Below, piece after piece: positions 6,186 to 23,708 of a stretch of 35,257 nucleotides of DNA. The DNA is from Nautiliaceae bacterium (lineage in GTDB: Bacteria; Campylobacterota; Campylobacteria; Campylobacterales; Nautiliaceae). Below the pieces are notes generated by a model that worked only from the letters and a program-made list of their open reading frames with translations, searched no databases and had not been told where the DNA came from. How positions within the stretch are numbered: position 1 is the stretch's first letter; each line of letters begins with the position of its first letter. A program made the translations under genes and the position numbers. The DNA is taken from contig JALWNI010000142.1 in the NCBI GenBank assembly GCA_027083695.1, forward strand, positions 1 to 35,257, written 5' to 3'.

Positions 6186-6528
6186 TTTAAAAGCTCTTCT
6201 TGAAGAAGCTATAAATAAAAAAGATTATAAAAAAGCTCTAAAAATAATCAATGAGCTTATAGCTTCTCCTAAATCAGTTAATGCGGAAGAAATTGATGGT
6301 ATCTTTTTTAAAGATATAAAAGATATTGTAAAATCAAAAGAAGATTTAGAAAATATTTTATTATCAACAAAAGTATTGTTTGAAAAAAAAGAAGAGTTAC
6401 TTGAATTTTTTGAGATGCTTTTGAAATATGGATTTAAAGAAAATGCAATAAGTTATTTTGAAGACTTGGTTTCCCAAATTGATGATATTGAGATAATTGA
6501 TGGATTTAATTCATTACTTACAAAATGA
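6160..6528 (+). CDS. Conserved small helical protein of unknown function
   Basis: This is a 122-residue acidic, lysine-rich, probably all-helical protein without a signal peptide. I do not recognise a named domain. It begins MNLRNIHFDLKALLEEAIN, and two helical halves look weakly repetitive (IINELI..., LLKYGFKENAISYFE...). It starts inside nfu (26-nt overlap, GAGGAT as RBS) and ends inside murE (29-nt overlap). This tight coupling argues for a real gene. A hypothetical ORF occupies the same slot between nfu and murE in Campylobacter as I remember it. Function unknown. Confidence 0.75.
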   Translation: MNLRNIHFDLKALLEEAINKKDYKKALKIINELIASPKSVNAEEIDGIFFKDIKDIVKSKEDLENILLSTKVLFEKKEELLEFFEMLLKYGFKENAISYFEDLVSQIDDIEIIDGFNSLLTK

Positions 6529-7723
6529 TTTAATTACAGACAACACTTCTAAATTATCACCAGATAAAATTTTTTTAAAAACCTTTCAAAATGCAAAATA
6601 TGCAAAAGATATTAAAAATTTTATAACCCCAAAAGAGCTTTTAAAAGCTCTTAAACTCACAACTAAATTTATTGGAATCACAGGTACAAACGGTAAAACA
6701 ACGACTGCATTTGTGCTTTCATATCTTTTAAAAGAGCTTGGGTTTACCGTGGCAACACAGGGAACTGAGGGATTTTATTATAATTTAGAAAAAAAAGAAT
6801 CAAAGACACTCACAACACCTCCGATATTTACTACCATAAAAAGAGCATTTGAATATAAACCTGATTTTTATATTATGGAAGTAAGCTCTCATGCGATAGC
6901 CCAGCAAAGAATTGAAGGGATTGAATTTTTTGCTAAATTATTTACCTCTTTTTCGCAGGACCATCTTGATTTTCACAAAAGCATGGAAGAATATAAAAAG
7001 GTTAAAGAGTCTTTTTTTCAGGATGAGGCGGTAAAAATAGTGAATGGAAAATTGAAAATTGAGAATGGAGCATGGAATATAGTTAATATTGGCGGATATG
7101 ATTTTAAAATAAATGCTAAAAGTTTATATGTGTTGGAAAATCCTATTGTTGAAAATATTCCGATGGCTGGTGAATTTAATAAAATGAATTTTTCATTGGC
7201 CTTAAAAACTGCTGAAATTTTCACAAATTCTCCATTCTCCATTCTTAATTCTTCATTAAAAAATTTTAAAGGTGTTCCCGGCAGAATGGAGATAGTTTCT
7301 AAAAATCCTTTAATTATTATAGATTTTGCCCATACACCTGATGGAATTGAAAATATCTTAAAAAGTATTAAGGGCAAAAAAATAGTGGTTTTTGGTGCAG
7401 GAGGAGATAGAGACAGAGAGAAAAGATCTTTAATGGGAAAAATGGCAAGTGAAAATGCTGATTTCGTGATACTTACAAATGATAATCCAAGATGTGAAAA
7501 TGAAGAACAGATTTTAAACGATATTAAAAAAGGTCTTATAAATAATAATTATCTGATTATTCCTGATAGAAAAGAAGCAATAAAAAAAGGTATTGATCTT
7601 GCTATTAAAGAAAATGCTGCTCTTTTAGTTTTGGGAAAAGGTGATGAGGAATATATTGAAAGATGCAAAGAAAAAATCCCTTTTAGCGACAGGGATGTTA
7701 TTCTTGCTCTTTTAAACTCTTAA
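6500..7723 (+). CDS. murE: UDP-MurNAc-tripeptide synthetase (meso-DAP adding)
   Basis: This 407-residue Mur ligase adds meso-diaminopimelate to UDP-MurNAc-L-Ala-D-Glu in the cytosol. The ATP-binding loop GTNGKTT is at residues 62-68, followed by MEVSSHAIAQQRI and SFSQDHLDFHKSMEEY. The DAP-specific DNPR motif is at residues 328-331. The N-terminal domain is short, as in Campylobacter. ATG 6500 is preferred over TTG 6497. Two stretches are odd: residues about 181-194 and 243-254 are encoded by degenerate 7-bp repeats in opposite orientation (separate entries), probably surface-loop insertions. The 3' end overlaps the convergent Wzz-like gene by 26 nt. Confidence 0.95.
   Translation: MDLIHYLQNDLITDNTSKLSPDKIFLKTFQNAKYAKDIKNFITPKELLKALKLTTKFIGITGTNGKTTTAFVLSYLLKELGFTVATQGTEGFYYNLEKKESKTLTTPPIFTTIKRAFEYKPDFYIMEVSSHAIAQQRIEGIEFFAKLFTSFSQDHLDFHKSMEEYKKVKESFFQDEAVKIVNGKLKIENGAWNIVNIGGYDFKINAKSLYVLENPIVENIPMAGEFNKMNFSLALKTAEIFTNSPFSILNSSLKNFKGVPGRMEIVSKNPLIIIDFAHTPDGIENILKSIKGKKIVVFGAGGDRDREKRSLMGKMASENADFVILTNDNPRCENEEQILNDIKKGLINNNYLIIPDRKEAIKKGIDLAIKENAALLVLGKGDEEYIERCKEKIPFSDRDVILALLNS
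7039..7080 (+). repeat. 7-bp degenerate tandem array inside murE (plus sense)
   Basis: Six consecutive heptamers read AGTGAAT, GGAAAAT, TGAAAAT, TGAGAAT, GGAGCAT and GGAATAT, consensus KGARAAT. They are translated in the murE frame as VNGKLKIENGAWN-like sequence. A matching array in the opposite orientation lies about 146 nt downstream. Confidence 0.7.
7227..7261 (-). repeat. 7-bp degenerate tandem array inside murE (inverse sense)
   Basis: ATTCTCC, ATTCTCC, ATTCTTA, ATTCTTC and ATTAAAA are the reverse complement of the GGAGAAT-type heptamer of the upstream array. In the murE frame they encode NSPFSILNSSLK, just before the conserved FKGVPGRME segment. Confidence 0.7.
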
Positions 7724-8552
7724 CAAATTCAATTAAAAATACCAAAAATATTGAAAGTATAAATCCTACAATAAATGCAACTGTAATAATAAGTTTCTTT
7801 TTAGGTTTTATTGGGTTTGGAGATTTTTTAACCGTTCCTATTATATGAGTTGGTGTGATATTAGCAGGAGAGAGTGTGTTTTTAAGATTTGTAATTGTTA
7901 ATTCGTTTTTTGTAATTTTTGATTGAAGTTCTGAAATATTATTTAATATTGTTGCATATAATTGTGCGTCTTTGGTGTTTTTTAGTTTTTCATTCAAAGT
8001 GTTTAATTCATATTTAAGTCTATTATTTGCTTTTTTTAATATGTCTATTTTTTTATTTATTTCTGATTTAAATGCTTTTAATTTTTTGTTTTCTTTGTTT
8101 TTTAAGTCTTTTAAAATTTTATTCAGATAATCATCGGCATTTTTATTTGAATATGCATCAATATTTAAATTATAAATATCTTTAATGTTTTTTGGAGTGG
8201 TTATATTGATTGTAGGATATGGAATTTTGTCAAATTTGTCTTTTTTGTATACATTTTTGAGATAAACTTTTGTGGCATACGGGTCAAGAAGATATATTTT
8301 GGAAATGGAAACAGCATTAGAATTGGTATTAGAATTAGAATTAATATAACCTAATTGAATGGATGTTGTAATTTCATAGACGGGTTTTTTTATAAATACA
8401 TAAATAATGGCTAATGCTGTTATAAGCAATGTGAAACCTACAATAAATTTTTTATATTTTAAGATAGTTTTTACTATATCTTTGAGGCTGATTTCATTGT
8501 CTTCTTCTATTGGAATATATTGAACAGGGATTATTTTTTGTTCTTGCGACAT
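7698..8552 (-). CDS. Wzz/chain-length-determinant family protein
   Basis: This 284-residue inner-membrane protein has the Wzz (polysaccharide co-polymerase) layout. A cytoplasmic N-terminus (ISLKDIVKTILKYKK) leads into TM1 (about residues 36-54). A lysine-rich periplasmic coiled coil follows (about 140-225). The Pro-rich SPNPIKPKKK segment comes just before TM2 (about 252-276), and the tail is short and cytoplasmic. Such proteins set O-antigen or capsule chain length. It is the only gene on the minus strand. It is convergent with murE (26-nt overlap) and far from the sugar genes at 19-35 kb, though possibly serving the same glycan. A BY-kinase domain is absent. Confidence 0.85.
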   Translation of the reverse strand: MSQEQKIIPVQYIPIEEDNEISLKDIVKTILKYKKFIVGFTLLITALAIIYVFIKKPVYEITTSIQLGYINSNSNTNSNAVSISKIYLLDPYATKVYLKNVYKKDKFDKIPYPTINITTPKNIKDIYNLNIDAYSNKNADDYLNKILKDLKNKENKKLKAFKSEINKKIDILKKANNRLKYELNTLNEKLKNTKDAQLYATILNNISELQSKITKNELTITNLKNTLSPANITPTHIIGTVKKSPNPIKPKKKLIITVAFIVGFILSIFLVFLIEFVKSLKEQE

Positions 8553-8569
8553 TAGTAACCTTTTTTAGG

Positions 8570-8582
8570 TAGAATTTTATCA
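8570..8582. promoter_or_regulatory. Overlapping divergent -10 boxes
   Basis: In the 42-nt gap between the Wzz-like gene and the macro-domain gene, TAGAAT (8570-8575, plus) partly overlaps the minus-strand TGA-TAAAAT (plus coordinates 8574-8582). Two polymerases could not occupy both at once, so the two genes may be expressed in competition. No -35 boxes are evident. Confidence 0.4.
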
Positions 8583-8594
8583 AAAAGGAAGGTA

Positions 8595-9083
8595 ATGTTT
8601 AAATTAAAACTCTCAGACATTTCAAAAGAAAAGGGAGAATATGTTGTAAATCCAAGTAATACAATACTATCACTTGGCAGCGGGGTTAGCGGAGTGTTAA
8701 AAAGGATGTGTCCGGAGCTTCAAAATGTTATGTGGGAATATCTTAATAGAAACGGATATCTAAATCCGGGAGATATTGCAGTTACACCATATCCTTGTGA
8801 AGAGTTTGAATACGCAATACACGCGGCTGTGATGGATTATACAAAAGAAGCGGTTGAGATTGATCCAGATTATGAAAGAATTGAAAAAATCTGTCAAAAT
8901 ATAGCCAAGTTTCTGGGTGATAAAAAAACAAAAGTAATAACACCTCTTCTTGGAACGGGAGTTGGCGGACTTAATAAGGAAAAAGTTTATAAAATCATGA
9001 AAAAACATTTTGAAAATTTAAATGCCGAAATTATACTTGTGGTACATAAAAAAGAAGATTATGATAAATTAATTTTAATTTAA
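8595..9083 (+). CDS. Macro-domain protein (ADP-ribose binding family)
   Basis: This 162-residue stand-alone macro domain binds ADP-ribose or its derivatives and may remove ADP-ribose from proteins or nucleic acids. The two ligand loops are visible: YVVNPSNTILSLGSGVSGVLKR (equivalent to VNAAN..L..GGGVxGAI) near residues 16-37, and PLLGTGVGGLNKEKVYKIM near 119-137. The usual second Asn of VNAAN is retained as VNPSN, while the GGG loop is GSG. AAGGAAGG gives a strong RBS. No ADP-ribosyltransferase partner lies nearby, so the substrate is unknown. Confidence 0.85.
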   Translation: MFKLKLSDISKEKGEYVVNPSNTILSLGSGVSGVLKRMCPELQNVMWEYLNRNGYLNPGDIAVTPYPCEEFEYAIHAAVMDYTKEAVEIDPDYERIEKICQNIAKFLGDKKTKVITPLLGTGVGGLNKEKVYKIMKKHFENLNAEIILVVHKKEDYDKLILI

Positions 9084-9091
9084 TAATTAGA

Positions 9092-9099
9092 TGTATAAT
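9092..9099 (+). promoter_or_regulatory. Extended -10 promoter before the ferredoxin-panD operon
   Basis: TG-TATAAT (TATAAT at 9094-9099) lies 9 nt after the macro-domain stop and 45 nt before the ferredoxin start. It likely drives ferredoxin, vapD, panD, ybaB and perhaps further genes downstream. Confidence 0.6.
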
Positions 9100-9144
9100 T
9101 GCATTACTTTCAAAAAAAATATATAATAATAAAAAGGAGCGCAT

Positions 9145-9480
9145 ATGCAAATGCCAAAACCAAAAAATATAATTTTTATGTGTCAGGTAAAAAGACCTCC
9201 AAATTTTCCAAAACCTAGTTGTGTTAGAGAAGGTAAAGAGGATTTATTTCCATACACACAGCAAAAAATGATGGAGATGGGAATCGATCCTATGACAAAC
9301 TGGATTGTGCCAACAGGTTGTCTTAACAGATGTAATTTCGGACCAGTTATGCTTGTTGAGCCTGGAAGTTATATGTATGTAGATCTTGATAAAGAAAAAA
9401 TTGACAGAATTTTAGAAGAACATATCAAAAACGGAAATCCTGTAAAAGAATATTTAATACCAGAGGAGTTTTGGGCGTAA
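9145..9480 (+). CDS. Thioredoxin-like [2Fe-2S] ferredoxin
   Basis: This 111-residue protein resembles the thioredoxin-fold 2Fe-2S ferredoxins (the NuoE C-terminal/Shethna-like type). Four cluster Cys are in place: C-x(n)-C in MCQVKRPPNFPKPSCVREG and C-x3-C in PTGCLNRCNFGPVML. The stretch YMYVDLDKEKIDRILEEHI with G-x-P-V-x-E matches the family's C-terminal part. It is a soluble electron carrier whose partner enzyme is not in the window. ATG 9145 follows AAGGAG. The stop is immediately followed by AGGAGAGTAAATG, which serves vapD. Confidence 0.88.
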   Translation: MQMPKPKNIIFMCQVKRPPNFPKPSCVREGKEDLFPYTQQKMMEMGIDPMTNWIVPTGCLNRCNFGPVMLVEPGSYMYVDLDKEKIDRILEEHIKNGNPVKEYLIPEEFWA

Positions 9481-9492
9481 GGAGAGTAAATG
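9480..9492 (+). repeat. 13-bp direct repeat, left copy (RBS+ATG of vapD)
   Basis: AGGAGAGTAAATG here is identical to 9779-9791. The two copies are 299 bp apart and enclose exactly the vapD gene. Each comprises the RBS and start codon of the gene that follows. It may be a duplication made when vapD was inserted, or simply a favoured RBS. Confidence 0.6.
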
Positions 9493-9780
9493 TATGCCGT
9501 AGTATTTGATTTGGATACAAGCTGTTTGGGAGATGAGTATCATACTCCATCAGCAAATAATGCTTATGCAGGTATAAGAAAATTTATGGAAAAACATAAT
9601 TTTAAATGGCAGCAAGGAAGTGTTTATTTTGGAGACGATAGTATAGATGCTGTAAAATGTGTATTGGTAGTACAAAAATTAGCTCAAACATACAGTTGGT
9701 TTAAAGCATGTGTAAAAGATATTAGAATGCTTAGAATAGAAGAAAATAATGATTTAATGCCAGCAATAGATATGGTATAG
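9490..9780 (+). CDS. vapD: VapD-type endoribonuclease (Cas2-like fold)
   Basis: This 96-residue protein belongs to the VapD family, whose members (for example the Helicobacter pylori protein) are purine-specific mRNA endonucleases with a ferredoxin-like, Cas2-related fold. Conserved features are FDLDTSCL at the N-terminus (acidic residues at 7 and 9), GSVYFGDD, YSWFKACVKDIRMLRIEENNDLMP. The length is normal. No antitoxin-like ORF is adjacent: the upstream gene is a ferredoxin and the downstream gene is panD. No cas genes occur. The gene is bounded by an exact 13-bp direct repeat, consistent with clean insertion into a ferredoxin-panD operon. Confidence 0.93.
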   Translation: MYAVVFDLDTSCLGDEYHTPSANNAYAGIRKFMEKHNFKWQQGSVYFGDDSIDAVKCVLVVQKLAQTYSWFKACVKDIRMLRIEENNDLMPAIDMV

Positions 9781-9791
9781 GAGAGTAAATG
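9779..9791 (+). repeat. 13-bp direct repeat, right copy (RBS+ATG of panD)
   Basis: Identical to 9480-9492. Recombination between the copies would delete vapD exactly and restore a ferredoxin-panD junction with one RBS and start codon. Confidence 0.6.
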
Positions 9792-10163
9792 AAAATAGAA
9801 ATGCTTTATTCTAAAATCCACAGAGCCACAGTAACGGATGCCAACTTGAATTATGTTGGCTCTATTACGATAGATGAAGAGCTGATGGATGCTGCAAATC
9901 TGCTTGTCGGGCAAAAAGTGGATATTGTAAATATAAATAACGGTGAGAGATTTTCCACTTATGTAATTAAGGGCGAAAGAGGCAAAAAGGATATCTGTCT
10001 AAACGGTGCCGCAGCAAGAAAAGTGCATCCTGGTGATAAAATAATCATTATTGCCTATGCACAGATGGATATAAATGAAGCAAAAGAATTTAAACCTGCC
10101 GTGATAATTGTAGATGATAATAACAATATAATAAAAAATACCGATAATTTGAAGGAAGAGTGA
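9789..10163 (+). CDS. panD: Aspartate 1-decarboxylase proenzyme
   Basis: This 124-residue pyruvoyl enzyme makes beta-alanine from L-aspartate for pantothenate and CoA. The self-cleavage site G24-S25 lies in NYVGSITID; Ser25 becomes the pyruvoyl group. The active-site neighbourhood [12 protein letters not shown] and the later [23 protein letters not shown] are intact. The length is standard. It overlaps the ybaB start (TGATG). The rest of the pantothenate pathway is not in the window. Confidence 0.97.
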
Positions 10164-10450
10164 TGTTTGGAAATATTGATTTAAACGAAATGATGAAAAA
10201 ACTTCAAGAAAGCATGGAAGAACAAAACAATAAAACATATACTGCAAAAAGCGGTGGTGGACTTGTAGAAGCTACTGTAAATGGACAGTTTGAACTTGTT
10301 GATTTAAAAATTGACGACTCTTTACTTGAAGATAAAGAATCTTTGCAGATACTTATTATGAGTGCTGTAAATGATGCAATAAAAATGGCTGTTGATGATA
10401 AAAAAGCTCAGGCTATGAATATGTTTGGAGGTCTTAATTTGGGACAATGA
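10163..10450 (+). CDS. YbaB/EbfC nucleoid-associated protein
   Basis: This is a 95-residue small dimeric DNA-binding protein of the YbaB/EbfC family, which coats the nucleoid. An N-terminal helix ([22 protein letters not shown]) leads to the strands GGGLVEATVNGQFELVDLKID and a C-terminal helix ending MNMFGGLNLGQ. ATG 10163, sharing its A with the panD stop, is preferred over GTG 10160. It overlaps the next gene by 4 nt. Confidence 0.93.
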   Translation: MFGNIDLNEMMKKLQESMEEQNNKTYTAKSGGGLVEATVNGQFELVDLKIDDSLLEDKESLQILIMSAVNDAIKMAVDDKKAQAMNMFGGLNLGQ

Positions 10451-11337
10451 AAAAATTAATTTTTTTAATACCTTTTTTGTTGTTTGGGAAAGTAATAGAT
10501 TTTTCAATCTGTTATGATAAATATTCGTTTATAAAAGATTTGATTCCTGTTACAAAAACTAAAAGTGTAACTTTTTCAAAACCTTCTAAATATTTATATT
10601 ATGACCCTTTTACAGGTTTGTATGTCGTAAATCACAAAAACACAAAAATAGTTAAATTTTTTACTAATGCAAAGCTTGGCTGGTGGATGGCAGGTATTAA
10701 AAATAATTCAGTTTTTGGCGGCACATATGCAAAAAAAGGATATTTCTTACAATTTTCAGTTTTAAGTGTTAAAACCCCTATAAATTCAATAATAAGCGAT
10801 ATTTTTTGCAGAGCGTATGGGGTAAGCTCAAACAGAGGTTTTTTAGATTCTAAAAAATTAATCCATTTTGTAAAATACGGATATTGGGGAGATATTGGAA
10901 TAGGCGTGGATGAAAATTTAAAAGTATTGTATTCGGATCCTTTTTATACGGACATAAAACCGGGTGAAAGGATTTTGTTTATAAATTCTAAAAAAGCCAC
11001 TCCAAAAATTTTTACAGATTATATACTTCTTGGTAAAAAAGGTCAAAAAGTAACAATAATTACAAATAAAAATGGATATACCTTAAAAATAAGAAAACTC
11101 AAATATCTTTATACTCCTCTTGAAAATTACGGAATAAAAGTCGATAAAAATTTAGAAGCACTCTTACCTAAAAATTTAGCTAATAGATATTTTTTGAAAA
11201 AGGGTAAAATAGTGGCAGTAAATTTTCAAAAAATTTTTTCATTCAAACAGCTTTTATATCTTCTTTCATTTGACAAAAATGTTACAATTACGCTTGAAAA
11301 TAACGGAATTAAAATTAACATACCTTTAAGGAAATAG
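10447..11337 (+). CDS. Periplasmic protein with C-terminal PDZ-like domain
   Basis: This 296-residue exported protein has a signal peptide of about 16 residues (MKKLIFLIPFLLFGKV, with no lipobox). The mid part is rich in aromatic residues, with two Cys (ICYDK near residue 23 and DIFCRAYG near 120) that could pair. A PDZ-like segment follows at about residues 150-220 (IGVDENLKVLYSDPF, IKPGERILFINSKKATPKIF, GQKVTIITNKNGY). As I recall, Campylobacter keeps an equivalent periplasmic protein between ybaB and ispA. No protease catalytic triad is visible. Function unknown; peptide binding in the periplasm is an inference. Confidence 0.75.
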   Translation: MKKLIFLIPFLLFGKVIDFSICYDKYSFIKDLIPVTKTKSVTFSKPSKYLYYDPFTGLYVVNHKNTKIVKFFTNAKLGWWMAGIKNNSVFGGTYAKKGYFLQFSVLSVKTPINSIISDIFCRAYGVSSNRGFLDSKKLIHFVKYGYWGDIGIGVDENLKVLYSDPFYTDIKPGERILFINSKKATPKIFTDYILLGKKGQKVTIITNKNGYTLKIRKLKYLYTPLENYGIKVDKNLEALLPKNLANRYFLKKGKIVAVNFQKIFSFKQLLYLLSFDKNVTITLENNGIKINIPLRK

Positions 11338-12180
11338 ATGGAAGAATTTATAAAAGAAAACTTAATAAAAGCAAAATCTTTTCATCCTTTTTTTGAAAAA
11401 GCTCTAAATGAGATGCTTCTTGCCGGCGGTAAAAGATTTAGACCCGAGCTTTTGCTATCAGTTGTTAAAGCTTACAATCCTCTTTTGATTGACAATGCTA
11501 AATATGCAGCTTTTGCACTTGAACTTGTACATACATACTCTCTTATACATGATGACCTGCCTGCGATGGATAATGCTTCTCTTAGAAGAGGACATCCGAC
11601 TCTTCATATAACATATGATGAGGTTACGGCAATTTTAGTAGGAGACGCACTTAATACTTATGCTTTTGAGGTTTTAAGCAAGGCTCCTATGCATAACGAT
11701 ACAAAAATTGAACTTATAAGAATTTTGGCTGAAAATGCCGGAGCTAACGGAATGATTTTAGGTCAGGCTATTGACTGTTATTTTGAAAATAAAAATCTGA
11801 ATTTGGATGAACTTAAATTTTTGCATCTTAACAAAACCGGAAAACTTATAGCGGCAAGTATGAAAATGGGAGCCGTTATTGTAAATAAGAATGATTTGGC
11901 TGACAGACTTTATGATTTCGGGCTTAAATTAGGACTACTTTTTCAGATTCAGGATGACTTGCTTGATTTGCTTGATGAATCAAAAACCGGTAAAAGCAGC
12001 GGTGTGGATGAGAATAAAAACACTTTTGTAACCCTACTTGGAAAAGATGAGGCAATAAAAAAAGCTGACAGGTTTGCAAAAGAGATAGAAAAAGAGCTTA
12101 ATGATTTTGATGAAAATTTAAAAACTGAACTTAACAAGCTTCTTAAAAAATATTTATACAGGCATAAAAATGTCAATTAA
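11338..12180 (+). CDS. ispA: Polyprenyl synthetase (geranyl/farnesyl diphosphate synthase)
   Basis: This 280-residue trans-prenyltransferase builds C10/C15 diphosphates from IPP and DMAPP for undecaprenyl and quinone synthesis. The first Asp-rich motif is HDDLPAMDNASLRRG with the inserted residues typical of bacterial FPP synthases, and the second is FQIQDDLLDLL. GGKRFRPELLL provides the IPP-binding Arg/Lys. The length is close to other bacterial FPP synthases (about 290). ATG follows the previous stop directly, with AAGGAAA as RBS. It overlaps the MNT gene by 11 nt. Confidence 0.93.
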   Translation: MEEFIKENLIKAKSFHPFFEKALNEMLLAGGKRFRPELLLSVVKAYNPLLIDNAKYAAFALELVHTYSLIHDDLPAMDNASLRRGHPTLHITYDEVTAILVGDALNTYAFEVLSKAPMHNDTKIELIRILAENAGANGMILGQAIDCYFENKNLNLDELKFLHLNKTGKLIAASMKMGAVIVNKNDLADRLYDFGLKLGLLFQIQDDLLDLLDESKTGKSSGVDENKNTFVTLLGKDEAIKKADRFAKEIEKELNDFDENLKTELNKLLKKYLYRHKNVN

Positions 12181-12460
12181 AAATGAAGTTTTGAATTTTT
12201 TAAGGGAGAATAAAAAAGTTTTTAGGAAAAAATACGGTATTAAGGAAATCTGGCTTTTTGGTTCAGTGGCAAGAGGAGAGGATACTCCAAGCAGTGATAT
12301 TGATTTGATTAATGATTTTAAATTTAACACTTTTGATAATTATTACGGATTTTTAGAAGATATGAAAGAAAAATTTAAAAGAAAAATTGATTTAGCAACA
12401 AAAGAAATAATAAAAGAGAGGTTAAAACCGTATATTTATAAGGATTTAATTAGTACGTAA
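12170..12460 (+). CDS. Minimal nucleotidyltransferase (MNT) domain protein
   Basis: This 96-residue single-domain pol-beta-type nucleotidyltransferase has active-site motif GSVARGEDTPSSDIDL (G31, S32, D43, D45) and a third acidic position in KIDLATKE. Such MntA proteins usually pair with a HEPN RNase and silence it by AMPylation. No HEPN ORF (Rx4-6H) is present on either side: ispA precedes with an 11-nt overlap and tkt follows. It is either an orphan antitoxin or has taken on another role. Confidence 0.88.
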   Translation: MSIKNEVLNFLRENKKVFRKKYGIKEIWLFGSVARGEDTPSSDIDLINDFKFNTFDNYYGFLEDMKEKFKRKIDLATKEIIKERLKPYIYKDLIST

Positions 12461-12463
12461 AAA

Positions 12464-12510
12464 GGTATATTTGTTATTGGTTAATAAAAATAACAAATAA
12501 CAAATATACC
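12464..12510 (+). repeat. 19-bp inverted repeat before tkt
   Basis: The arms 12464-12482 and 12492-12510 are complementary over 19 positions with one mismatch, around a 9-nt A-rich loop. The arms contain tandem heptamer-like AACAAAT units. It starts 4 nt after the MNT stop and ends 21 nt before tkt. There is no following T-tract, so a standard intrinsic terminator is unlikely. It may be an attenuator-like stem or a small palindromic element. Confidence 0.65.
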
Positions 12511-12531
12511 AATATACAAAAAGGAAGGTCT

Positions 12532-14397
12532 ATGAACTTGGAAATGAAGAAAAAAATGGCGGATACTATAAGGTTTTTAGCGGCGGATATGGTGCAAAAA
12601 GCAAATTCGGGACATCCAGGGGCTGCACTTGGTATGGCTGATATTTTTGTTGAATTCAGTGATATTGTAAGACTCACACCTCACAATCCTGCGTTTATAA
12701 ACAGAGACAGGGTTGTATTCTCGGGAGGACATGCAACACCTCTTATTTATTCAATGCTTTATTTATGGGGATATGATATTTCTATGGATGATTTGAAAAA
12801 TTTCAGACAACTTGGAAGCAAGACTCCGGGACATCCTGAATTTGGACACACTCCTGGAATCGAAGTAACTACCGGTCCTCTTGGTCAAGGTGTGGCAAAT
12901 GCGGTAGGCTTTGCAATGGCAAAAAAATATATTTCAAATAAATTTCCTGAAATTAACCACAAAATATGGTGTTTTTGCGGGGACGGGGATTTGGAAGAAG
13001 GTATTTCTTATGAAGCTTGCTCTATTGCAGGAACAGAAAAATTAGAAGATTTGATTTTAATTTATGACAGCAATAATATCTCTATTGAAGGACCTGTTAA
13101 ACCGGTATTTGCAGATGATATCCATAAAAGATTTGAATCGCAAGGGTTTAGAGTGCTTGAAATGAACGGGCATGATTATGAAGACATTAAAAAAACTCTG
13201 ATTAGGGCAAGAGAAAGTGATGGAAGACCGACTCTTGTAATAGCAAAAACAGTAATAGCAAGAGGGGCTGTGGGGCTTGAAGGAAGTGAAAAAACACACG
13301 GTGCTCCGCTAGGAGTTGATGTTATTAAAAAAAGTAAAGAAGCGGCAGGATTTGACCCAGAAAAAACATTTTATGTACCCCAAGACGTTCTTATCAGATT
13401 TAGATGTGTAAAAGAAAAAGGCGAACTTTTAGAGGCTGAATGGAACAAAAAAGCAAGAGTAAAAGAAATAGAAGAATTTTTTGAAAAAGATTTCAGTAAA
13501 ATAAACTGGCCTGAATTTAAAGATGGTGAAAGCATTGCAACAAGAAAAAGCAATGGGAAAATTCTTAATGCAATAGCAAAAGCTATTCCAAGTTTTCTTG
13601 GAGGAAGTGCGGATTTGGCACCTTCAAACAATACTCATTTAGAAGGTGAAGATGATTTTCCATACGGAAGAAACCTTCATTTTGGTATTAGAGAACATGC
13701 AATGGGCGCGATTAACAATGCATTTAGTGCATACGGATTCTTGCCATTTGCAGCGACGTTTTTGGTATTTAGCGATTATTTAAGAGGTGCTTTAAGGCTT
13801 TCGGCTTTAAGTAAACATAAAAACTACTGGATTTTTACTCATGACAGTATAGCTCTTGGAGAAGACGGACCGACTCATCAGCCGGTGGAACATCTCACTT
13901 CACTTAGAGCAATTCCAAATCTTTATGTAATGAGACCTGCTGATGCGAATGAAAATGTAAATTGCTGGAAGGCGGCGTTAAATATCGACGCTCCCGTTGC
14001 ATTTGCTCTGACAAGACAAGGGGTTAAAAATCAGACTCCAAAAGATATCGATTTAAGCAAAGGCGCTTATGTTTTAAGAGAAGGAAAAGCTGATATTACA
14101 TTAGTTGCAAGCGGAAGTGAAGTCGAACTTGCCATGGATGTGGCAGAGGAGATTGATGCAAGAGTTGTGAGTGTGCCTTGTTTTGATTTGCTTGAAGAGC
14201 AGACTCAGGAATTTAAACAAAGTCTTTTTAAAGGAAAAGTTATAGCAATTGAAGCCGCAAGAGGACTTGAATGGTATAAATATGCCGATATGGTTATCGG
14301 AATGGATACATTCGGTGCAAGCGGAAAAGGAAGCGAAGTTTATAAATATTTCGGATTTGACAAAGATAAAATAATCGAAAAAATAAAAAATTTATAA
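12532..14397 (+). CDS. tkt: Transketolase
   Basis: This 621-residue thiamine-diphosphate enzyme moves two-carbon units between sugar phosphates in the non-oxidative pentose phosphate pathway. Signatures in order: ADMVQKANSGHPGAALGMAD, GGHATPLIYS, GHPEFGHTPGIEVTTGPLGQG, the ThDP motif GDGDLEEGISYEA, later GGSADLAPSNNT and the pyrimidine-domain FGIREHAMGAINN. The length is a little short of the 630-660 typical. AAGGAAGG RBS. It ends in a clear terminator. Confidence 0.97.
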   Translation: MNLEMKKKMADTIRFLAADMVQKANSGHPGAALGMADIFVEFSDIVRLTPHNPAFINRDRVVFSGGHATPLIYSMLYLWGYDISMDDLKNFRQLGSKTPGHPEFGHTPGIEVTTGPLGQGVANAVGFAMAKKYISNKFPEINHKIWCFCGDGDLEEGISYEACSIAGTEKLEDLILIYDSNNISIEGPVKPVFADDIHKRFESQGFRVLEMNGHDYEDIKKTLIRARESDGRPTLVIAKTVIARGAVGLEGSEKTHGAPLGVDVIKKSKEAAGFDPEKTFYVPQDVLIRFRCVKEKGELLEAEWNKKARVKEIEEFFEKDFSKINWPEFKDGESIATRKSNGKILNAIAKAIPSFLGGSADLAPSNNTHLEGEDDFPYGRNLHFGIREHAMGAINNAFSAYGFLPFAATFLVFSDYLRGALRLSALSKHKNYWIFTHDSIALGEDGPTHQPVEHLTSLRAIPNLYVMRPADANENVNCWKAALNIDAPVAFALTRQGVKNQTPKDIDLSKGAYVLREGKADITLVASGSEVELAMDVAEEIDARVVSVPCFDLLEEQTQEFKQSLFKGKVIAIEAARGLEWYKYADMVIGMDTFGASGKGSEVYKYFGFDKDKIIEKIKNL

Positions 14398-14416
14398 AAA
14401 GCCTTTTTGGCTTTTT
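14396..14416 (+). terminator. Intrinsic terminator after tkt
   Basis: AAAAAGCC and GGCTTTTT form a perfect 8-bp stem with a 5-nt T loop that overlaps the last bases of the tkt stop. The 3' arm supplies the U-run. The symmetric A/T tails could also stop antisense transcription. Confidence 0.8.
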
Positions 14417-14452
14417 CAGATTAAAATGTTTTACTGAGCTAAATGCTCTTTG

Positions 14453-14461
14453 TGATATAAT
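14453..14461 (+). promoter_or_regulatory. Extended -10 promoter of the aminotransferase operon
   Basis: TGA-TATAAT (TATAAT at 14456-14461), the same nine bases as before rpmJ, lies 20 nt upstream of the next start codon. It follows the tkt terminator and opens a new transcription unit. Confidence 0.7.
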
Positions 14462-14481
14462 TTCGTTAAAAAAGGAATAGA

Positions 14482-15582
14482 ATGATTTTAGCCACCCCTG
14501 GACCTGTTGAAATTCCTCTTTTTGTAAGAGAAACATTTTTAGGTGAAACAATTCACCACAGAACTCCTGAATTTAAAGCAATTTTACTTGAAACGCTTGA
14601 AAGATTTAAAAATATTACACATCTGCCTTTCAATGTTTTTTTAAGCTCATCTGGTACGGGCGCAATGGAAGCAGCTGTTATCAATACAGTAAAAAATAAA
14701 GCGCTTACAGTAAATGCCGGCAAATTCGGCGAGAGATGGGGAAAAATCTGTGAAGCTCACGGTATAGAGTACAAAGAAATCAAATATGACTGGGATACAC
14801 CGGCACAGATTGATGATATTATTGCCGCAATAAAAGAAGATTCTTCAATTGATACGCTTTTTATCCAAATAAGCGAGAGTGCGGGTGGGCTTAGACATCC
14901 GGTGGAAGAAATTGCCGCTGAGGTTAAGCTGATAAATGAAGATATTATTATTGTAGCGGACGGAATTACGGCTCTTGGAGTGGAAGATATAGATACAGCA
15001 AATATCGATATAGTAATAGGAGGAAGTCAAAAAGCGTTTATGTTGCCTCCCGGACTTGCTATGCTTGGTATCAGCGAAGCCGGGTTTAAAAGAATAGGCA
15101 AAGGTAAAGGATTTTATTTTAACCTTGCAAATGAAATAAAAAAACAAAGCGAAGGCTCAACTGCATTTACACCGGCAACAAGCCATATAATCGCACTTAA
15201 TGAAGTACTTAAAAAACTTGAAGAAATCGGACTTGAAAACCATTATAAAAATACGGCAAAAAGACATGATGCCTTAATTCACGCAATAGAGGAACTTGGA
15301 CTTTCAATATTCCCGCAAAATCCAGCACTTTCTATGGCTGCTGTTTATTTTGAAAAAGCCGAAGAGCTTAGAAAAATTCTTAAAAAATACGAAGTAAACG
15401 TTGCCGGCGGACAGGATCATATGAAAGGCAAGCTGTTTAGAATCAACAATATGGGAATTATAGAAGATTACAAAATGGCACATATTATAAATGCGGTGGA
15501 ACTCGCACTTGATGAGCTTGGTGTCAGAAAATATGACGGAAGCGGGGTTAAGATTTACACAGCTGAAAAAATAAAAGTATAA
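14482..15582 (+). CDS. Class V PLP aminotransferase (alanine-glyoxylate/serine-pyruvate type)
   Basis: This 366-residue fold-type I PLP enzyme has the N-terminal signature TPGPVEIP and HHRTPEFKAIL, then SSSGTGAMEAAVIN. Asp and the PLP lysine lie in VADGITALGVEDI and VIGGSQKAFMLPPG (Lys184). It groups with alanine-glyoxylate / serine-pyruvate aminotransferases. In Campylobacterota this class may serve serine or glycine synthesis in place of a classical SerC. The exact substrate cannot be read from the sequence. It has its own promoter and is followed after 1 nt by a small membrane protein gene. Confidence 0.88.
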   Translation: MILATPGPVEIPLFVRETFLGETIHHRTPEFKAILLETLERFKNITHLPFNVFLSSSGTGAMEAAVINTVKNKALTVNAGKFGERWGKICEAHGIEYKEIKYDWDTPAQIDDIIAAIKEDSSIDTLFIQISESAGGLRHPVEEIAAEVKLINEDIIIVADGITALGVEDIDTANIDIVIGGSQKAFMLPPGLAMLGISEAGFKRIGKGKGFYFNLANEIKKQSEGSTAFTPATSHIIALNEVLKKLEEIGLENHYKNTAKRHDALIHAIEELGLSIFPQNPALSMAAVYFEKAEELRKILKKYEVNVAGGQDHMKGKLFRINNMGIIEDYKMAHIINAVELALDELGVRKYDGSGVKIYTAEKIKV

Positions 15583-15583
15583 A

Positions 15584-15802
15584 ATGATAAGTGATAAGAT
15601 AAAAATTGAAATTGATTTACTAAGAGATAGTTTAAGAAATATATTTTTTGTAATGTTTGCACTTGTCAGTGGTGAAGTGAGTCTTTTGTATAAAATTTTT
15701 CATAGAGAAGATTTTGTTAGTATAGTTTTTAGTGTAAATGGGTTTTTAATATTAATTTTATTTTATTTTGTTCAAATTAGTTATAAAGTAATTGGAGGAT
15801 AA
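15584..15802 (+). CDS. Small two-helix membrane protein, unknown function
   Basis: This 72-residue protein has a short cytoplasmic N-terminus (MISDKIKIEIDLLRDSLRN). Two probable membrane helices (about residues 19-40 and 46-67) are joined by a charged loop containing HRED. It begins 1 nt after the aminotransferase stop without a strong RBS, so translational reinitiation is likely. No family recognised. Its proximity to the 29-codon single-helix gene suggests a small membrane pair. Confidence 0.6.
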   Translation: MISDKIKIEIDLLRDSLRNIFFVMFALVSGEVSLLYKIFHREDFVSIVFSVNGFLILILFYFVQISYKVIGG

Positions 15803-15805
15803 AAA

Positions 15806-15891
15806 ATGAAATACATACTTTTAACTGTATTATTGCTTATTTTAGCATGGTTTTTAATAAAATCTGTTGATGTCTCAGTAAAAGAGGATAA

Positions 15892-15895
<4 letters not shown>
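15806..15895 (+). CDS. 29-residue single-span membrane miniprotein
   Basis: ATG 15806 follows an excellent Shine-Dalgarno GGAGG (15794-15798, 7 nt away). The protein reads MKYILLTVLLLILAWFLIKS followed by VDVSVKEDK: one hydrophobic helix with a charged, presumably exposed tail. Its stop overlaps the hisZ-like start (ATGA), so it is fully embedded in the operon. It is easily missed because of its length. It has no lipobox. Function unknown. Confidence 0.72.
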
Positions 15896-17923
<2,028 letters not shown>

Positions 17924-17931
17924 ATAATTAT

Positions 17932-18013
17932 ATGGGAGGATGAGTATATGAGTTTATGGGATTTAAAAATTTATAAAATATCAACTCATTCACCCATTTA
18001 CCCATCTTCTCAT
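17932..18013. repeat. Inverted pair of 8-bp arrays, purA/FliJ-like junction (no gene inside)
   Basis: The left half (17932-17960) reads ATGGGAGG, ATGAGTAT, ATGAGTTT, ATGGG. The right half (17981-18013) reads TCAACTCAT, TCACCCAT, TTACCCAT, CTTCTCAT, the reverse complement of the same ATGRGTRA unit. The spacer is about 20 nt of A/T. Mismatches between the arms are mostly purine-purine swaps, giving G-U pairs or A-C mismatches. It is read here as a payload-less form of the element at 22004-22548. Confidence 0.8.
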
Positions 18014-18027
18014 ATACTATTAAAAAC

Positions 18028-18450
18028 ATGAAAACAAAATTTGATTCGGTTTTGAAAGTAAAAAAAAACGAAGTTGAAAAGATTGAAAGAAATATTCAAA
18101 AAATAAATGTTTCAATAAATATGTTAAAAGAAAAAATTAAAAAATTAAATGATAAACTCTCTTTACTTTCTTTCCCTAAAAATGGGAGTTTTAGCGAATT
18201 CAATCAATATAAATTAATGCAAAATATTTTAATTGACGAAATAGATAATCTGGAAAATCAGATAAATGTACTTGAAAACCGCAAAAATGAGCTTTTTAAA
18301 GAGTATAAAAAAGCAAATATTGAGTATGAAAAAATAAAATATCTCCAAGCAGAAGAGATAAAAAAGCTGATTAAAAAACAAAAACAAAAAGAGAATATCC
18401 AAATGGATGAAATTGCAATTCTTTTAAGGAATAAAAATGAATCCAACTAA
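18028..18450 (+). CDS. FliJ-like coiled-coil protein
   Basis: This 140-residue highly charged, continuous coiled coil (heptads across nearly the whole length, Lys/Glu-rich, with a small break at LSFPKNGSFSE) has the size and shape of FliJ, the flagellar export ATPase stalk and chaperone-escort protein. Campylobacter carries a FliJ-like gene next to purA as far as I recall. Coiled coils are poor evidence for homology, so the call is moderate. The start is 15 nt after the inverse octamer array. The 3' end overlaps the next gene by 14 nt. Confidence 0.6.
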   Translation: MKTKFDSVLKVKKNEVEKIERNIQKINVSINMLKEKIKKLNDKLSLLSFPKNGSFSEFNQYKLMQNILIDEIDNLENQINVLENRKNELFKEYKKANIEYEKIKYLQAEEIKKLIKKQKQKENIQMDEIAILLRNKNESN

Positions 18451-18877: not shown

Positions 18878-19425
18878 TAATTAACTCAAAACTTTCAGCT
18901 TCGAATCACGCATTTTCCCATTCACCCATCCACCCATTCACCCATCCACTCATCCACCTTTTAAAAAAAATCCTTATCCCTTTTGCCATCTTCTTCATTG
19001 CTTTTTTTATCATCGGCTGTACTACAAAAATTACACCGGTTTTTGTAACAATTAAATCTCCAAAAATCAAAATATCAGATGAGGGTTTTTTAAAAGAAGG
19101 ATTTGGATATAAAGAGATTATAATATATAAAGCTGGAAATGTTCCGGTTAAATTTTTGTTAAAACAAAATCAGATATGTGTGAATAAAAAATGTTTTAAT
19201 AAATATTTATTTATAAAACACTATTTTAAAGGGTATAAAAAAAATTTTTTTGATAAAATTCTATCTAAAAAGCCTTTGTCACTTAAAAATATACAAAAAA
19301 TACCAGAAGGATTTATACAAAAAACGCAAAACATTACCTATATAGTTAAAAAAAACAGTGTTTTATTTAAAGACAAAAAAAAGCATATTATTATTTTTAT
19401 TAAATATTTAAAGGAGAAAGGATGA
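18874..19425 (+). CDS. Lipoprotein with repeat-encoded N-terminal leader
   Basis: This 183-residue protein has a normal lipoprotein signal core (LLKKILIPFAIFFIAFFIIG before Cys49; lipobox IIGC). It is preceded by about 28 extra residues rich in His, Pro and Ser ([14 protein letters not shown]) encoded by the inverse octamer array at 18906-18953. No ATG exists between the array and the signal core, so ATG 18874 (ATGA overlap with the YrdC gene) appears to be the working start. The mature part is Lys-rich with two Cys (ICVNKKCF). Function unknown. Its stop overlaps galU. Confidence 0.7.
   Translation: MIINSKLSASNHAFSHSPIHPFTHPLIHLLKKILIPFAIFFIAFFIIGCTTKITPVFVTIKSPKIKISDEGFLKEGFGYKEIIIYKAGNVPVKFLLKQNQICVNKKCFNKYLFIKHYFKGYKKNFFDKILSKKPLSLKNIQKIPEGFIQKTQNITYIVKKNSVLFKDKKKHIIIFIKYLKEKG
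18906..18953 (-). repeat. 8-bp array inside the lipoprotein leader (inverse sense)
   Basis: Six contiguous units: TCACGCAT, TTTCCCAT, TCACCCAT, CCACCCAT, TCACCCAT, CCACTCAT (consensus TYACYCAT). In this orientation no frame contains a stop, so it is translated as part of the lipoprotein N-terminus. There is no plus-sense partner at this junction. Confidence 0.8.
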
Positions 19426-20234: not shown

Positions 20235-22003
20235 TGTGTGGAATAGTAGGGTGTATTGGAATAAATGATCCAGTTAAGTATCTTATAGAAGGGCTCAAAG
20301 AGCTTGAATACAGAGGCTATGATAGTGCCGGTATTGCCGTAATGGATGAAGAGGATTTAAAAATAATAAAGGCTGTTGGAAAACTTAAAAACCTTGAAGA
20401 TAAAGTAAAAAAGGTAATATTTAAAAATCCTTTTTCAGGTATAGGACATACGAGATGGGCCACACACGGGAAGCCGACAGAGCTTAACGCTCATCCTCAT
20501 AAAGGGAAGTTTAGTGCGGTGGTGCATAACGGTATTATTGAAAACTATCAGGAGATTAAAGATAAACTTCAAAAAGAAGGAGTTGATTTTATATCCCAGA
20601 CGGATACCGAGGTTATAGTAAAGCTTTTTGAATATTATTATGAGGGGGATGCATTTAAGGCATTTAAGAGAGTGCTTGATGAGATTGACGGTGCTTATGC
20701 AGTGCTTCTTATTACAAAAAAAGAGCCTAAAAAGATATTTTTTGCCAAAAAAGGTTCACCTTTAATAGTGGCTAAAAACAATAAAGAGATCTATTTTGCT
20801 TCATCTGATGCACCTCTTATCGGATATGCAAACAGTGCACATTATTTAGAAGACGGGGAATTTGGATGGGTGGATAATGAAATTCATCTTTTTAATGAAA
20901 ATAAAGAGATAATCCCCGCATTCAAACCTCTTCCTTCAAATAAAGAATCGGCAAAAAAAGGCGGATTTAGATTTTATATGGAAAAAGAGATTTATGAGCA
21001 GTTTGACGTTTTAAAAGAAAACACCCTTGGGAGAAATACAAAAGATGGGATTAAATTCGATGAGCTTGATAGGGAATTTTTTGATGGAATTAACAATATT
21101 ATAATTTCAGCATGCGGTACAAGCTATCATGCGGGACTTGTGGGTAAATATCTGATTGAAAGAAATGCGAAAATAAGAGTCGATGTGGAAGTTGCAAGTG
21201 AGCTTAGATACAGAGACCCTCTTCTTACAAAAGACACTCTTTTTGTCGTGATATCACAAAGCGGGGAGACGGCGGATACTCTTGAAACGCTTAAAATGGC
21301 AAAAAAAGCAGGGCTGAAAACCCTTGCGCTTTGTAATGTAGACAACTCTTCAATCGTAAGGGAAGCGGATAAAACAATCTTACTTAGAGCCGGGATAGAA
21401 AAAGGTGTGGCTTCTACAAAAGCGTTTGCTACACAGGTGATGACTCTTTGGATGTTTGCAAATTATCTTGGAGATAAAAACGAATATGATGCCATTAATG
21501 AAGCTATTGAAGTTACAAAAGTAGACGCTTCAATCCATGAAAAGATAAAAAGACTCTCAAAAAGATATCTTCACGGACATGGATTTTTCTTTATCGGAAG
21601 GGATATTTTCTATCCTCTTGCGCTTGAAGGTGCATTGAAGCTAAAAGAGATAAGCTACATCCACGCCGAAGGCTATCCGGCAGGAGAGATGAAACACGGA
21701 CCAATCGCACTTGCAGACCCCGAGCTTTTCGTAGTCGCACTTTTATCTAAAAACATACTTTTTGAAAAAACAAAATCAAACATTGAAGAGCTTGTAGCAA
21801 GAGATGCCACAACGCTTACAATTTCAAGCGAATATATCGAAATGACAGATGATTTCGTAAAAATCAGTGAAGCAAACCATCCGATGGTGGAATTTTTTGA
21901 AATGATGGTAATTACACAGCTTCTTGCTATGGAAGTGGCAATAAGAATGGGCAATGATGTCGATATGCCAAGAAACTTGGCTAAATCGGTTACGGTGGAG
22001 TAG
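20234..22003 (+). CDS. glmS: Glucosamine-6-phosphate synthase (glutamine-hydrolysing)
   Basis: This 589-residue two-domain enzyme converts fructose-6-P and glutamine to glucosamine-6-P for peptidoglycan and LPS. The N-terminal Ntn domain begins MCGIVGCIG with nucleophile Cys2. HTRWATHG and HNGIIENYQEIK follow. Two SIS domains carry SACGTSYHAG, ISQSGETADTLETLKMAKKAG, and GRDIFYPLALEGALKLKEISYIHAEGYPAGEMKHGP. The C-terminus ends in the family NLAKSVTVE. The octamer array starts at the stop codon. No glmS ribozyme or sRNA-type leader was seen upstream. Confidence 0.98.
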   Translation: MCGIVGCIGINDPVKYLIEGLKELEYRGYDSAGIAVMDEEDLKIIKAVGKLKNLEDKVKKVIFKNPFSGIGHTRWATHGKPTELNAHPHKGKFSAVVHNGIIENYQEIKDKLQKEGVDFISQTDTEVIVKLFEYYYEGDAFKAFKRVLDEIDGAYAVLLITKKEPKKIFFAKKGSPLIVAKNNKEIYFASSDAPLIGYANSAHYLEDGEFGWVDNEIHLFNENKEIIPAFKPLPSNKESAKKGGFRFYMEKEIYEQFDVLKENTLGRNTKDGIKFDELDREFFDGINNIIISACGTSYHAGLVGKYLIERNAKIRVDVEVASELRYRDPLLTKDTLFVVISQSGETADTLETLKMAKKAGLKTLALCNVDNSSIVREADKTILLRAGIEKGVASTKAFATQVMTLWMFANYLGDKNEYDAINEAIEVTKVDASIHEKIKRLSKRYLHGHGFFFIGRDIFYPLALEGALKLKEISYIHAEGYPAGEMKHGPIALADPELFVVALLSKNILFEKTKSNIEELVARDATTLTISSEYIEMTDDFVKISEANHPMVEFFEMMVITQLLAMEVAIRMGNDVDMPRNLAKSVTVE

Positions 22004-22107
22004 ACGGGTAAATGAGTAGATGGGTGAATGAGTGAATGAGTAAATGGGTGAATGGGTGAATGAGTAAATGAGAAAATGGGTAAATGAGTAGATGAGGAAA
22101 TGGATAA
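22004..22107 (+). repeat. 13-unit 8-bp array after glmS (plus sense)
   Basis: Thirteen contiguous octamers in perfect 8-nt phase from ACGGGTAA through repeated ATGAGTGA / ATGGGTGA / ATGAGTAA to ATGGATAA, consensus ATGRGTRA. It begins directly after the glmS TAG and ends 24 nt before the four-helix-bundle gene. It is the longest array in the window, and the variable positions are mostly purine transitions. Confidence 0.9.
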
Positions 22108-22131
22108 AAGAATAAGATGAGTGGGAAAGTA

Positions 22132-22500
22132 ATGAGGACACACAAAGATTTAGATATTTGGAAACTTGGAATCGAATTGGTTGAAAATATTTATAAATTG
22201 TGTGAAGTTTTTCCGTTGGAAGAAAAATTCGGTATTGTTTCCCAAATAAAAAGGGCCGCCGTTTCCATACCTTCAAATATTGCAGAAGGCAGTGCGAGAA
22301 ATTCCAAAAAGGAATTTATTCAATTTTGCTATATTTCATTAGGCTCTTTATCAGAAATTGAAACTCAACTAATTATATCCAACAGATTAAAATTTATTTC
22401 GAATGAAGATTTAGAAAAAAACATATTAACGATAGAAACACTAAGAAAAAAACTGTTGAATTTTATCAAATATCTCAAAAGGAAAGCTTATGAAACATAA
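22132..22500 (+). CDS. Four-helix-bundle protein (23S rRNA IVP type, TIGR02436)
   Basis: This 122-residue protein begins [20 protein letters not shown] and carries the family core [25 protein letters not shown], with the usual [11 protein letters not shown] helix. These proteins occur in intervening sequences of bacterial 23S rRNA genes and elsewhere. The related Avd protein assists diversity-generating retroelements. No reverse transcriptase or rRNA is near. ATG 22132 is preferred over 22117 because the family begins at MRTHKDL. The gene lies between oppositely oriented octamer arrays and overlaps the galE start by 11 nt, so it looks like the payload of a small element. Confidence 0.9.
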
Positions 22501-23569
22501 TAACTTATCAACCCATCCACCCATTCACTCATCCACCCATCCACTTATATTAGTCACCGGCGGTGCCGGATACATCGGCAGTCATACCCTTATTGAATTA
22601 GAGAAGGCAGGATTTGATTTTTTAGTGCTTGATAATCTTTCTAATTCAAGTGAGGAAGCTATCAGAAGGGTTGAGAAGATTATAAATAAAAAAATTCCTT
22701 TTATTAAAGGCGATATAAGAGATAAAAATCTTTTAAAAGAGGTTTTTAAAGAAAATAAAATTGACAGCGTAATTCATTTTGCCGGGCTTAAAGCGGTGGG
22801 TGAATCGGTAGAAAAGCCGCTTATTTATTATGAAAACAATGTATGCGGTACAAATACGCTTCTTGAAGTTATGAAAGAATTCGGTGTCAAAAAGTTTGTA
22901 TTCAGCTCATCTGCGACAGTTTATGGCGAGCCGGATAAAATGCCGGTAACTGAGGATATGCAAACGGGAATCGGGATAACAAATCCTTATGGCAGAAGCA
23001 AATATATGATAGAAGAGATATTAAAAGATTTGTTTATTAGTGATAATTCATGGAAAATTGCAATTTTAAGATATTTTAATCCGGTAGGTGCACATGAGAG
23101 CGGTATTATAGGAGAAGACCCGGAAGGCATTCCAAATAACCTTATGCCGTTTATCACTCAAGTAGCTGTCGGGAAGCTTCCTAAACTTAGAGTATTTGGA
23201 GGGGATTATCCTACGCATGACGGAACGGGCGTTAGGGATTATATACATGTAATGGATTTGGCAAATGCGCATGTAAAGGCTCTTGAATATCTAAATAACA
23301 ATGATTTAAATGAGCCTTTAATAGTAAATCTAGGTACCGGTCAGGGATACAGCGTGCTTGATATGGTAAAAGCGTTTGAGAGGGCAAGCGGAGTAAGAAT
23401 CCCTTATGATATAGTTGACAGAAGGCCCGGTGATATTGCCAAAATATACGCAAATCCAAAAAAAGCCAAAGAGCTTTTAGGCTGGGAAGCTAAAAGAGGG
23501 ATTGATGAAATGTGTGAAAGTGCATGGAAATGGCAAAATCTTAATCCTAAGGGGTATAAGGGTGAGTAG
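22490..23569 (+). CDS. galE: UDP-glucose 4-epimerase with repeat-encoded leader
   Basis: This 359-residue extended SDR enzyme interconverts UDP-glucose and UDP-galactose. After about 20 leader residues the normal start region appears ([13 protein letters not shown]). The catalytic Ser/Tyr/Lys are in SSSATVYGE and [12 protein letters not shown], and the C-terminus ends [25 protein letters not shown]. The leader [20 protein letters not shown] comes from the end of the four-helix-bundle gene plus the inverse octamer array. No ATG, GTG or TTG exists at the native position, so the cassette supplies the start codon and the RBS (AGGAAAG). The stop codon lies inside another octamer unit. Confidence 0.95.
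22508..22548 (-). repeat. 8-bp array inside the galE leader (inverse sense)
   Basis: TCA-ACCCAT, CCACCCAT, TCACTCAT, CCACCCAT, CCACTTAT: about five units in the TYACYCAT orientation, translated in frame in galE. The inner boundary ATCAACCCAT resembles ATCAACTCAT at 17980-17989, supporting common origin of the two right ends. Confidence 0.85.
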
Positions 23570-23625
23570 ATGAGTGAATGGGTGGATGAGTAAATGGGTG
23601 AATGGGTGAATGAGAATATGGAGTA
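23562..23625 (+). repeat. 8-bp array after galE (plus sense)
   Basis: Eight units: GTGAGTAG, ATGAGTGA, ATGGGTGG, ATGAGTAA, ATGGGTGA, ATGGGTGA, ATGAGAAT, ATGGAGTA. The first unit contains the galE stop codon. No inverse partner follows. The next 80 nt hold only A-rich sequence before the next gene, with no convincing ORF or site. Confidence 0.85.
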
Positions 23626-23708
23626 GAAAGAAAAAAATGAATATTTTAAAAGAAAAGGGAAAAATGCTTTATGCAAAAGAGTGAAAATTTGAATTTAAAG
23701 GAAAAAGT

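Follow-up and report, generated by a model that had tools for sequence, protein, structure and literature searches.

Inverted heptamer arrays read in frame in murE, and their probable relation to the tandem arrays that flank IVP genes

An inverted pair of 7-bp tandem arrays lies in the reading frame of murE in a Nautiliaceae bacterium, within a stretch of 35,257 nucleotides (contig JALWNI010000142.1; hereafter, the window), which raises the question of how repeats of this kind come to occupy the coding sequence of an essential gene. A first-pass annotation made from the sequence alone had described the pair, likened it to octamer pairs found elsewhere in the window and compared it with Rickettsia palindromic elements. 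The gene and its arrays are arranged as follows:

6497..7723, + strand: murE host gene, UDP-MurNAc-L-Ala-D-Glu ligase, 408 aa (ORF list, Pfam and solved homologue)
7042..7076, + strand: site 1, G-rich heptamer array, GAATGGA in 5.0 copies, class GARAATK, 82% matches (Tandem Repeats Finder)
7077..7226, + strand: segment between the arms, 150 nt that code for ordinary MurE sequence, with homologues in every relative
7227..7257, - strand: site 2, C-rich heptamer array, ATTCTCC in 4.4 copies, 87% matches (Tandem Repeats Finder)

The heptamer pair in the murE reading frame

Pfam places Mur_ligase_M and Mur_ligase_C on ORF 6497-7723, and its best solved homologue is MurE 4bub. Tandem Repeats Finder and the frame of the ORF confirm that two inverted arrays are read through, site 1 as NGKLKIENGAW (MurE residues about 182-193) and site 2 as NSPFSILNSS (about 244-254). 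The unit class of site 2 is the reverse complement of that of site 1, and the two arms, taken over a span of 42 nt (7032-7073 and 7227-7268), are 76% complementary. The annotation was right that the segment between them is ordinary MurE sequence, although the arms are separated by 150 nt and not by the 146 nt it gave.

In 60 windows simulated with an order-2 Markov model, no period-7 array was as strong as those in murE. When the two protein segments were recoded synonymously 20,000 times, 184 recodings reached the score of site 1, one that of site 2 and none both. Since neither procedure reproduces the arrays, the periodicity is a property of the DNA and not a by-product of the protein; chance and protein sequence do not suffice to explain it. 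In the AlphaFold model (mean pLDDT of 93), site 1 is predicted as a beta-hairpin, with strands 185-189 and 193-198, and site 2 as a turn followed by helix 247-256; neither is a disordered loop, and the annotation had expected surface loops.

Conservation and turnover of the murE sites

MurE was matched in 59 of 60 relatives, with a few partial or weak matches, and the heptamer pattern in 22 of the 60 genomes, mostly from one family (f1; hereafter, the family), with nearly none for a reversed control. In a codon alignment of murE from 17 family members, about 13 carried arrays at both sites, some of them degraded, with identical positions and orientation, the coding strand being G-rich at site 1 and C-rich at site 2. 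Class GARAATK occurs in the genome of the window (G000) and in G008, G011 and G020; class AAAAGTG in G014 and G016, as well as at site 1 of G002, G004, G006 and G013; and further classes occupy site 2 of G013 and G007. Judged by eye, the two arms share their class in about six of the 13 array-bearing genomes and differ in the rest, in agreement with the earlier suggestion that they originated separately. The four genomes whose murE lacks arrays (G015, G017, G018 and G019) are scattered over the MurE tree, the inner forks of which are partly weak, and thus either several losses or recurrent gains of the arrays may have taken place.

At site 2, DNA identity between array-bearing and array-less relatives from different genera is 0.29, about that expected by chance, at near-equal length, which indicates that this sequence was overwritten, in one direction or the other, with little or no change in length. 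At site 1, G000 exceeds array-less relatives by only a few residues. The two segments are thus no simple lineage-specific insertions: the loop that contains site 1 is a feature of this family, and site 2 overwrites a helix common to every MurE. Relatives without the periodicity have other residues in these places, so that the case named in the annotation as refuting, the same residues conserved in the absence of heptamers, was not encountered. The units of site 1 differ in register between the main classes (ARAATKG versus AAAGTKA), a difference that is compatible with mutation and slippage. Different genera have site-1 haplotypes in common, as local recombination of murE segments between them might produce, but the excess identity is gone within about 14 codons.

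Rickettsia palindromic elements are likewise translated in frame inside housekeeping genes; each is a self-contained palindrome of conserved sequence whose insertion lengthens the protein. The murE repeats share the in-frame translation in a housekeeping gene, but here native sequence lies between two distinct arrays, the class of which varies, and one of the two overwrites a helix. We found neither an in-frame addition of residues relative to an empty gene nor a conserved palindromic sequence common to the copies and, as the presence of the array hardly alters the length of site 2 and no fixed palindrome was inserted, the mechanism of these elements does not apply to murE.

Tandem arrays in the related genomes and around IVP genes

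A class-blind scan for periods 5 to 12 covered 1.6 Mb of sampled stretches from G008, G014, G011 and G044; for G000, genome-wide counts combine pattern searches and sampled stretches. Period 7 stood out over the other periods in all four scanned genomes, with about 20-70 period-7 arrays per 400 kb. Neighbouring arrays closer than 200 bp were arranged as G-rich then C-rich in 25 cases and never in the reverse order, with 11 GG and two CC neighbours. Many of these inward pairs have arms of different class, indicating that the polarity is independent of pairing. The C-then-G order dominates at 600-3000 bp (19 versus 8), in keeping with an intergenic location of the inward pairs.

Many arrays inside genes keep their position between genomes. 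Reciprocal orthologs were compared among G008, G011, G014 and stretches of G000. An ortholog was available for 59 arrays within genes, and 29 of these coincided within 10 residues with an array of that ortholog, where 0.3 would be expected at random and 3.5 if the gene is taken to contain an array; the comparisons share genomes and, hence, are non-independent. Twelve of the 29 are murE comparisons, leaving 17 of 47 without murE; the other genes include those for RNase HII, thiamine-monophosphate synthase and an MFS transporter (Pfam). G000 also has a second in-gene inward heptamer pair, on contig C118 (L079, 9999-10025 and 10404-10430), hosted by an ORF on the minus strand (9907-10425, 172 aa) that by eye resembles a mismatch-specific DNA glycosylase.

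The likeness of the murE pair to octamer pairs in the window also stands, the octamer arrays being real at four places, two of which bracket a gene for a 23S rRNA-intervening sequence protein (IVP):

18906..18958, - strand: C-rich octamer array inside the 5' end of ORF 18874-19425
21998..22122, + strand: G-rich octamer array GTRAATGR, left arm of the IVP unit (Tandem Repeats Finder)
22117..22500, + strand: IVP gene, PF05635, four-helix bundle, E=6.6e-38 (Pfam)
22507..22544, - strand: C-rich octamer array, right arm of the IVP unit, extending into the N-terminus of a galE-like ORF
23563..23621, + strand: G-rich octamer array at the 3' end of the galE-like ORF

The IVP gene, whose solved homologue is 2gsc (XCC0516 of Xanthomonas, five chains), sits between glmS- and galE-like genes, inside inward octamer arrays, and is the one IVP gene found in G000. 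Octamer GTRAATGR is concentrated in the genus of the window. ORF 18874-19425 is lipoprotein-like, with its octamer array in the N-terminal region, and its orthologs in G008, G011 and G014 contain heptamer arrays near the same place. In G002, the counterpart of this IVP locus, likewise about 14 kb from murE and beside glmS- and galE-like genes, has heptamers and not octamers; hence, the period as well as the class can be switched.

The association of IVP genes with arrays extends to many phyla. For the IVP genome scan, a closer subset of IVP sequences served as the alignment. Both flanks could be read at 24 IVP loci in relatives; arrays adjoin the gene on at least one side in 20 of them and on both sides in 14, 13 of these facing inward. 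Around 80 IVP loci of named genomes from many phyla, flanks of about 300 bp (47 kb) contained 72 arrays of period 7, 28 of period 8, three of period 9 and none of other periods, with 37 of period 7 and six of period 8 in 281 kb farther away. Regions far from IVP genes are mostly coding, and we therefore used ORF enclosure as a stricter control: matched inverted arrays enclose 21 of 74 IVPs and, of 149 other ORFs, five that all resemble IVPs in sequence; 22 of the 74 named loci have no detectable arrays. The arms match in 23 of 32 cases within an IVP locus and in 2% of comparisons between different loci. In all, close pairs point inward, sites frequently persist from one genus to another with a changed unit, and IVPs lie inside matched 7- to 9-bp arrays in many phyla.

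The class carried by an IVP can also be dispersed within the same genome. Arrays of GARAATN or AAAAGTG flank the IVPs of G002, G006, G008, G011, G014 and G016, such that the murE pair has period, polarity and unit class in common with IVP-flanking arrays; between its own arms lies MurE coding sequence and no IVP gene. Class GTGATTS, flanking the IVP of Luteimonas, has 74 matches there and none in ten other genomes, and GTYRWTG is present in G023 and G058 and absent from the IVP-less G042 of the same genus. In G025, GTYRWTG gave 121 matches, with equally many to the reversed control, and was discounted as another repeat. G044 (L172-L191) contains the coexisting heptamer classes AATGAGG, GAGCGTTG, GATTTTG, GTCATTG, GTGTTAC and AGTAACT, three of which resemble the flanks of its own IVP genes.

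In G064, class GTGARAY is found at a single place, and G063 has it once; it flanks the IVP in both genomes, so that arrays can accompany an IVP undispersed. This class is dispersed in G066 (119 matches), where the class flanking the IVP, GGTTTYY, has 12 matches, 11 of them in one place. G028 has a single period-7 array in 200 kb, yet both arms are present at its IVP (L123). The results with GTGARAY, GTGATTS and G028 favour the view that the arrays may belong to the IVP unit. At a junction between emrA-like and emrB-like genes (L326-L339), an IVP is found in several family members and in G023 and G025, from other families, while G001, G004 and G026 have no IVP there. Left arm and IVP are absent together from G001 and G004, and in G012 about 13 bp (GAAAAATGCAAGC) are repeated either side of left arm plus IVP. 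The right arm is kept without an IVP in G004 and G009, and thus arrays may also precede or outlive the IVP.

Matches to GARAATN are commoner in IVP-bearing than in IVP-less family genomes (Mann-Whitney p = 0.007, uncorrected for kinship). In sampled stretches, the number of period-7 arrays per 100 kb was 0 in G046 and 1.4 in G042, both IVP-less, and 0.5 in G028 (one IVP), 1.7 in G058 (three), 5.5 in G008 (two), 7.2 in G011 (five), 8.8 in G014 (two), 10 in G023 (five) and 18 in G044 (six). These figures are suggestive of an array density rising with IVP count, with exceptions: in these stretches G058 is no richer in arrays than G042, and arrays are present in G009, G007 and G020, where no IVP was found, the assemblies of the last two being incomplete.

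Possible origin of the arrays

We lean towards considering the murE pair an IVP-less member of a spreading and turning-over population of inverted arrays, the same thing as those that bracket IVPs. By analogy, the pair is best read as REPIN-like. The REPIN/RAYT system (RAYT, REP-associated tyrosine transposase, an HUH nuclease) comprises a small gene between inverted repeats and dispersed inverted pairs without the gene, with genome-specific classes and fixed sites. In the features described for that system, IVP arrays are alike, with a small gene in inverted repeats, dispersed gene-less pairs, genome-specific classes and lasting sites. They differ in that a 7- to 9-bp tandem array, the sequence of which varies between loci and genomes, takes the place of a fixed REP palindrome, in that the gene codes for a four-helix IVP (PF05635) and not for a transposase, and in that the arms need not match.

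New arrays would be written by copying from other arrays, through conversion or template switching, overwriting the target, and would then be homogenised by slippage. The IVP, or a complex containing it, might promote this writing in the way that RAYT promotes REPINs. The murE arrays would persist, without evident benefit, because a beta-hairpin and a helix can accommodate them, while selection would remove stops and frameshifts. Against a spreading array population, no array movement was observed, and neither a nuclease nor a polymerase activity of IVP is known to us. Moreover, the classes of the arms often differ, so the pairs do not all come from one copying event.

Plain replication slippage, with heptamer simple-sequence repeats growing where tolerated and without any link to IVP, and with inverted pairs formed by fold-back template switching, is an unlikely but serious alternative. 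It predicts the in-register turnover of units seen at site 1, fold-back copying overwrites without added length, as at site 2 of murE, and PMC4692102 quotes an origin of heptamer repeats in the polymerase footprint. However, slippage leaves unexplained why pairs face inward only (25:0), often with arms of unlike class, why in the control set only IVP genes were enclosed, and why genome-specific classes match the resident IVP. We regard it as rather improbable that array pairs come first and that IVP elements home into their loops, the arrays being a target and not a part of the element. The right arm without IVP in G004 and G009, the many array pairs without IVP and the location of rRNA IVSs, likewise in hairpins (PMC4990558), are in its favour, but G028 has both arms at its IVP and almost no other arrays, GTGARAY is confined to a single place in G064, and empty sites lack the left arm.

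Least probable is that the murE arms pair in mRNA or single-stranded DNA and regulate the gene, for instance through RNase III cleavage or ribosome pausing. The RNA of window positions 7030-7270 does fold better than 200 of 200 shuffles (z = -3.3), with the arms paired, and IVP elements of 23S rRNA sit in a stem cut by RNase III (PMC4990558). Against it, about half of the genomes have arms that differ in class, four genomes have murE without arrays, an Rfam search of window positions 6400-24500 gave no match, and inward polarity persists elsewhere without complementarity. Hence, we rejected an RNA-hairpin function as the explanation for murE, since the arms, despite a good fold here, are not kept matched across the family; a hairpin role is possible in murE of the window and is not conserved in the family.

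Parts of the array system that we favour have been seen before. The passages of PMC4692102 on the GGGAATC arrays of Xanthomonas describe a period of 7, 70-75 convergent inverted pairs, extensive variation in length and sequence between species at shared intergenic sites, and a rare intragenic location (7-11%). The murE pair, with 5.0 and 4.4 tandem copies of a dispersed 7-bp unit, is of this type, and the Xanthomonas pairs are convergent like ours, so that the inverted geometry is not new. Our arrays also resemble the TAACTGA repeats (PMC4679880) and the cyanobacterial STRRs, all of period 7 and numbering tens to hundreds per genome. Unlike here, those passages on Xanthomonas report no link to IVP and do not describe class switching at orthologous coding sites. 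In the intervening sequences of 23S rRNA, for example in Coxiella, an S23/IVP ORF lies in the loop between inverted repeats with a 28-bp stem (PMC4990558); IVP units share this arrangement, but their stems are tandem heptamer or octamer arrays and they lie between or beside protein-coding genes, not in rRNA. We found no link between IVP genes and tandem arrays in the open-access literature, nor a description of conserved coding sites with class switching.

Tentatively, and with somewhat less assurance than for murE itself, we propose that IVP (S23) genes and inverted 7- to 9-bp arrays may form an unrecognised selfish repeat system without a transposase, present in many phyla, in which the IVP would drive array writing and turnover across the genome, even in frame in murE. 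Heptamer arrays are known piecemeal, from Xanthomonas, cyanobacteria and Beggiatoaceae, with no agent assigned, and IVP/S23 has solved structures and no known function; a link between them would be a testable answer to both puzzles. The murE gene of this family would then be a case of a spreading repeat that rewrites the coding sequence of an essential gene at fixed sites.
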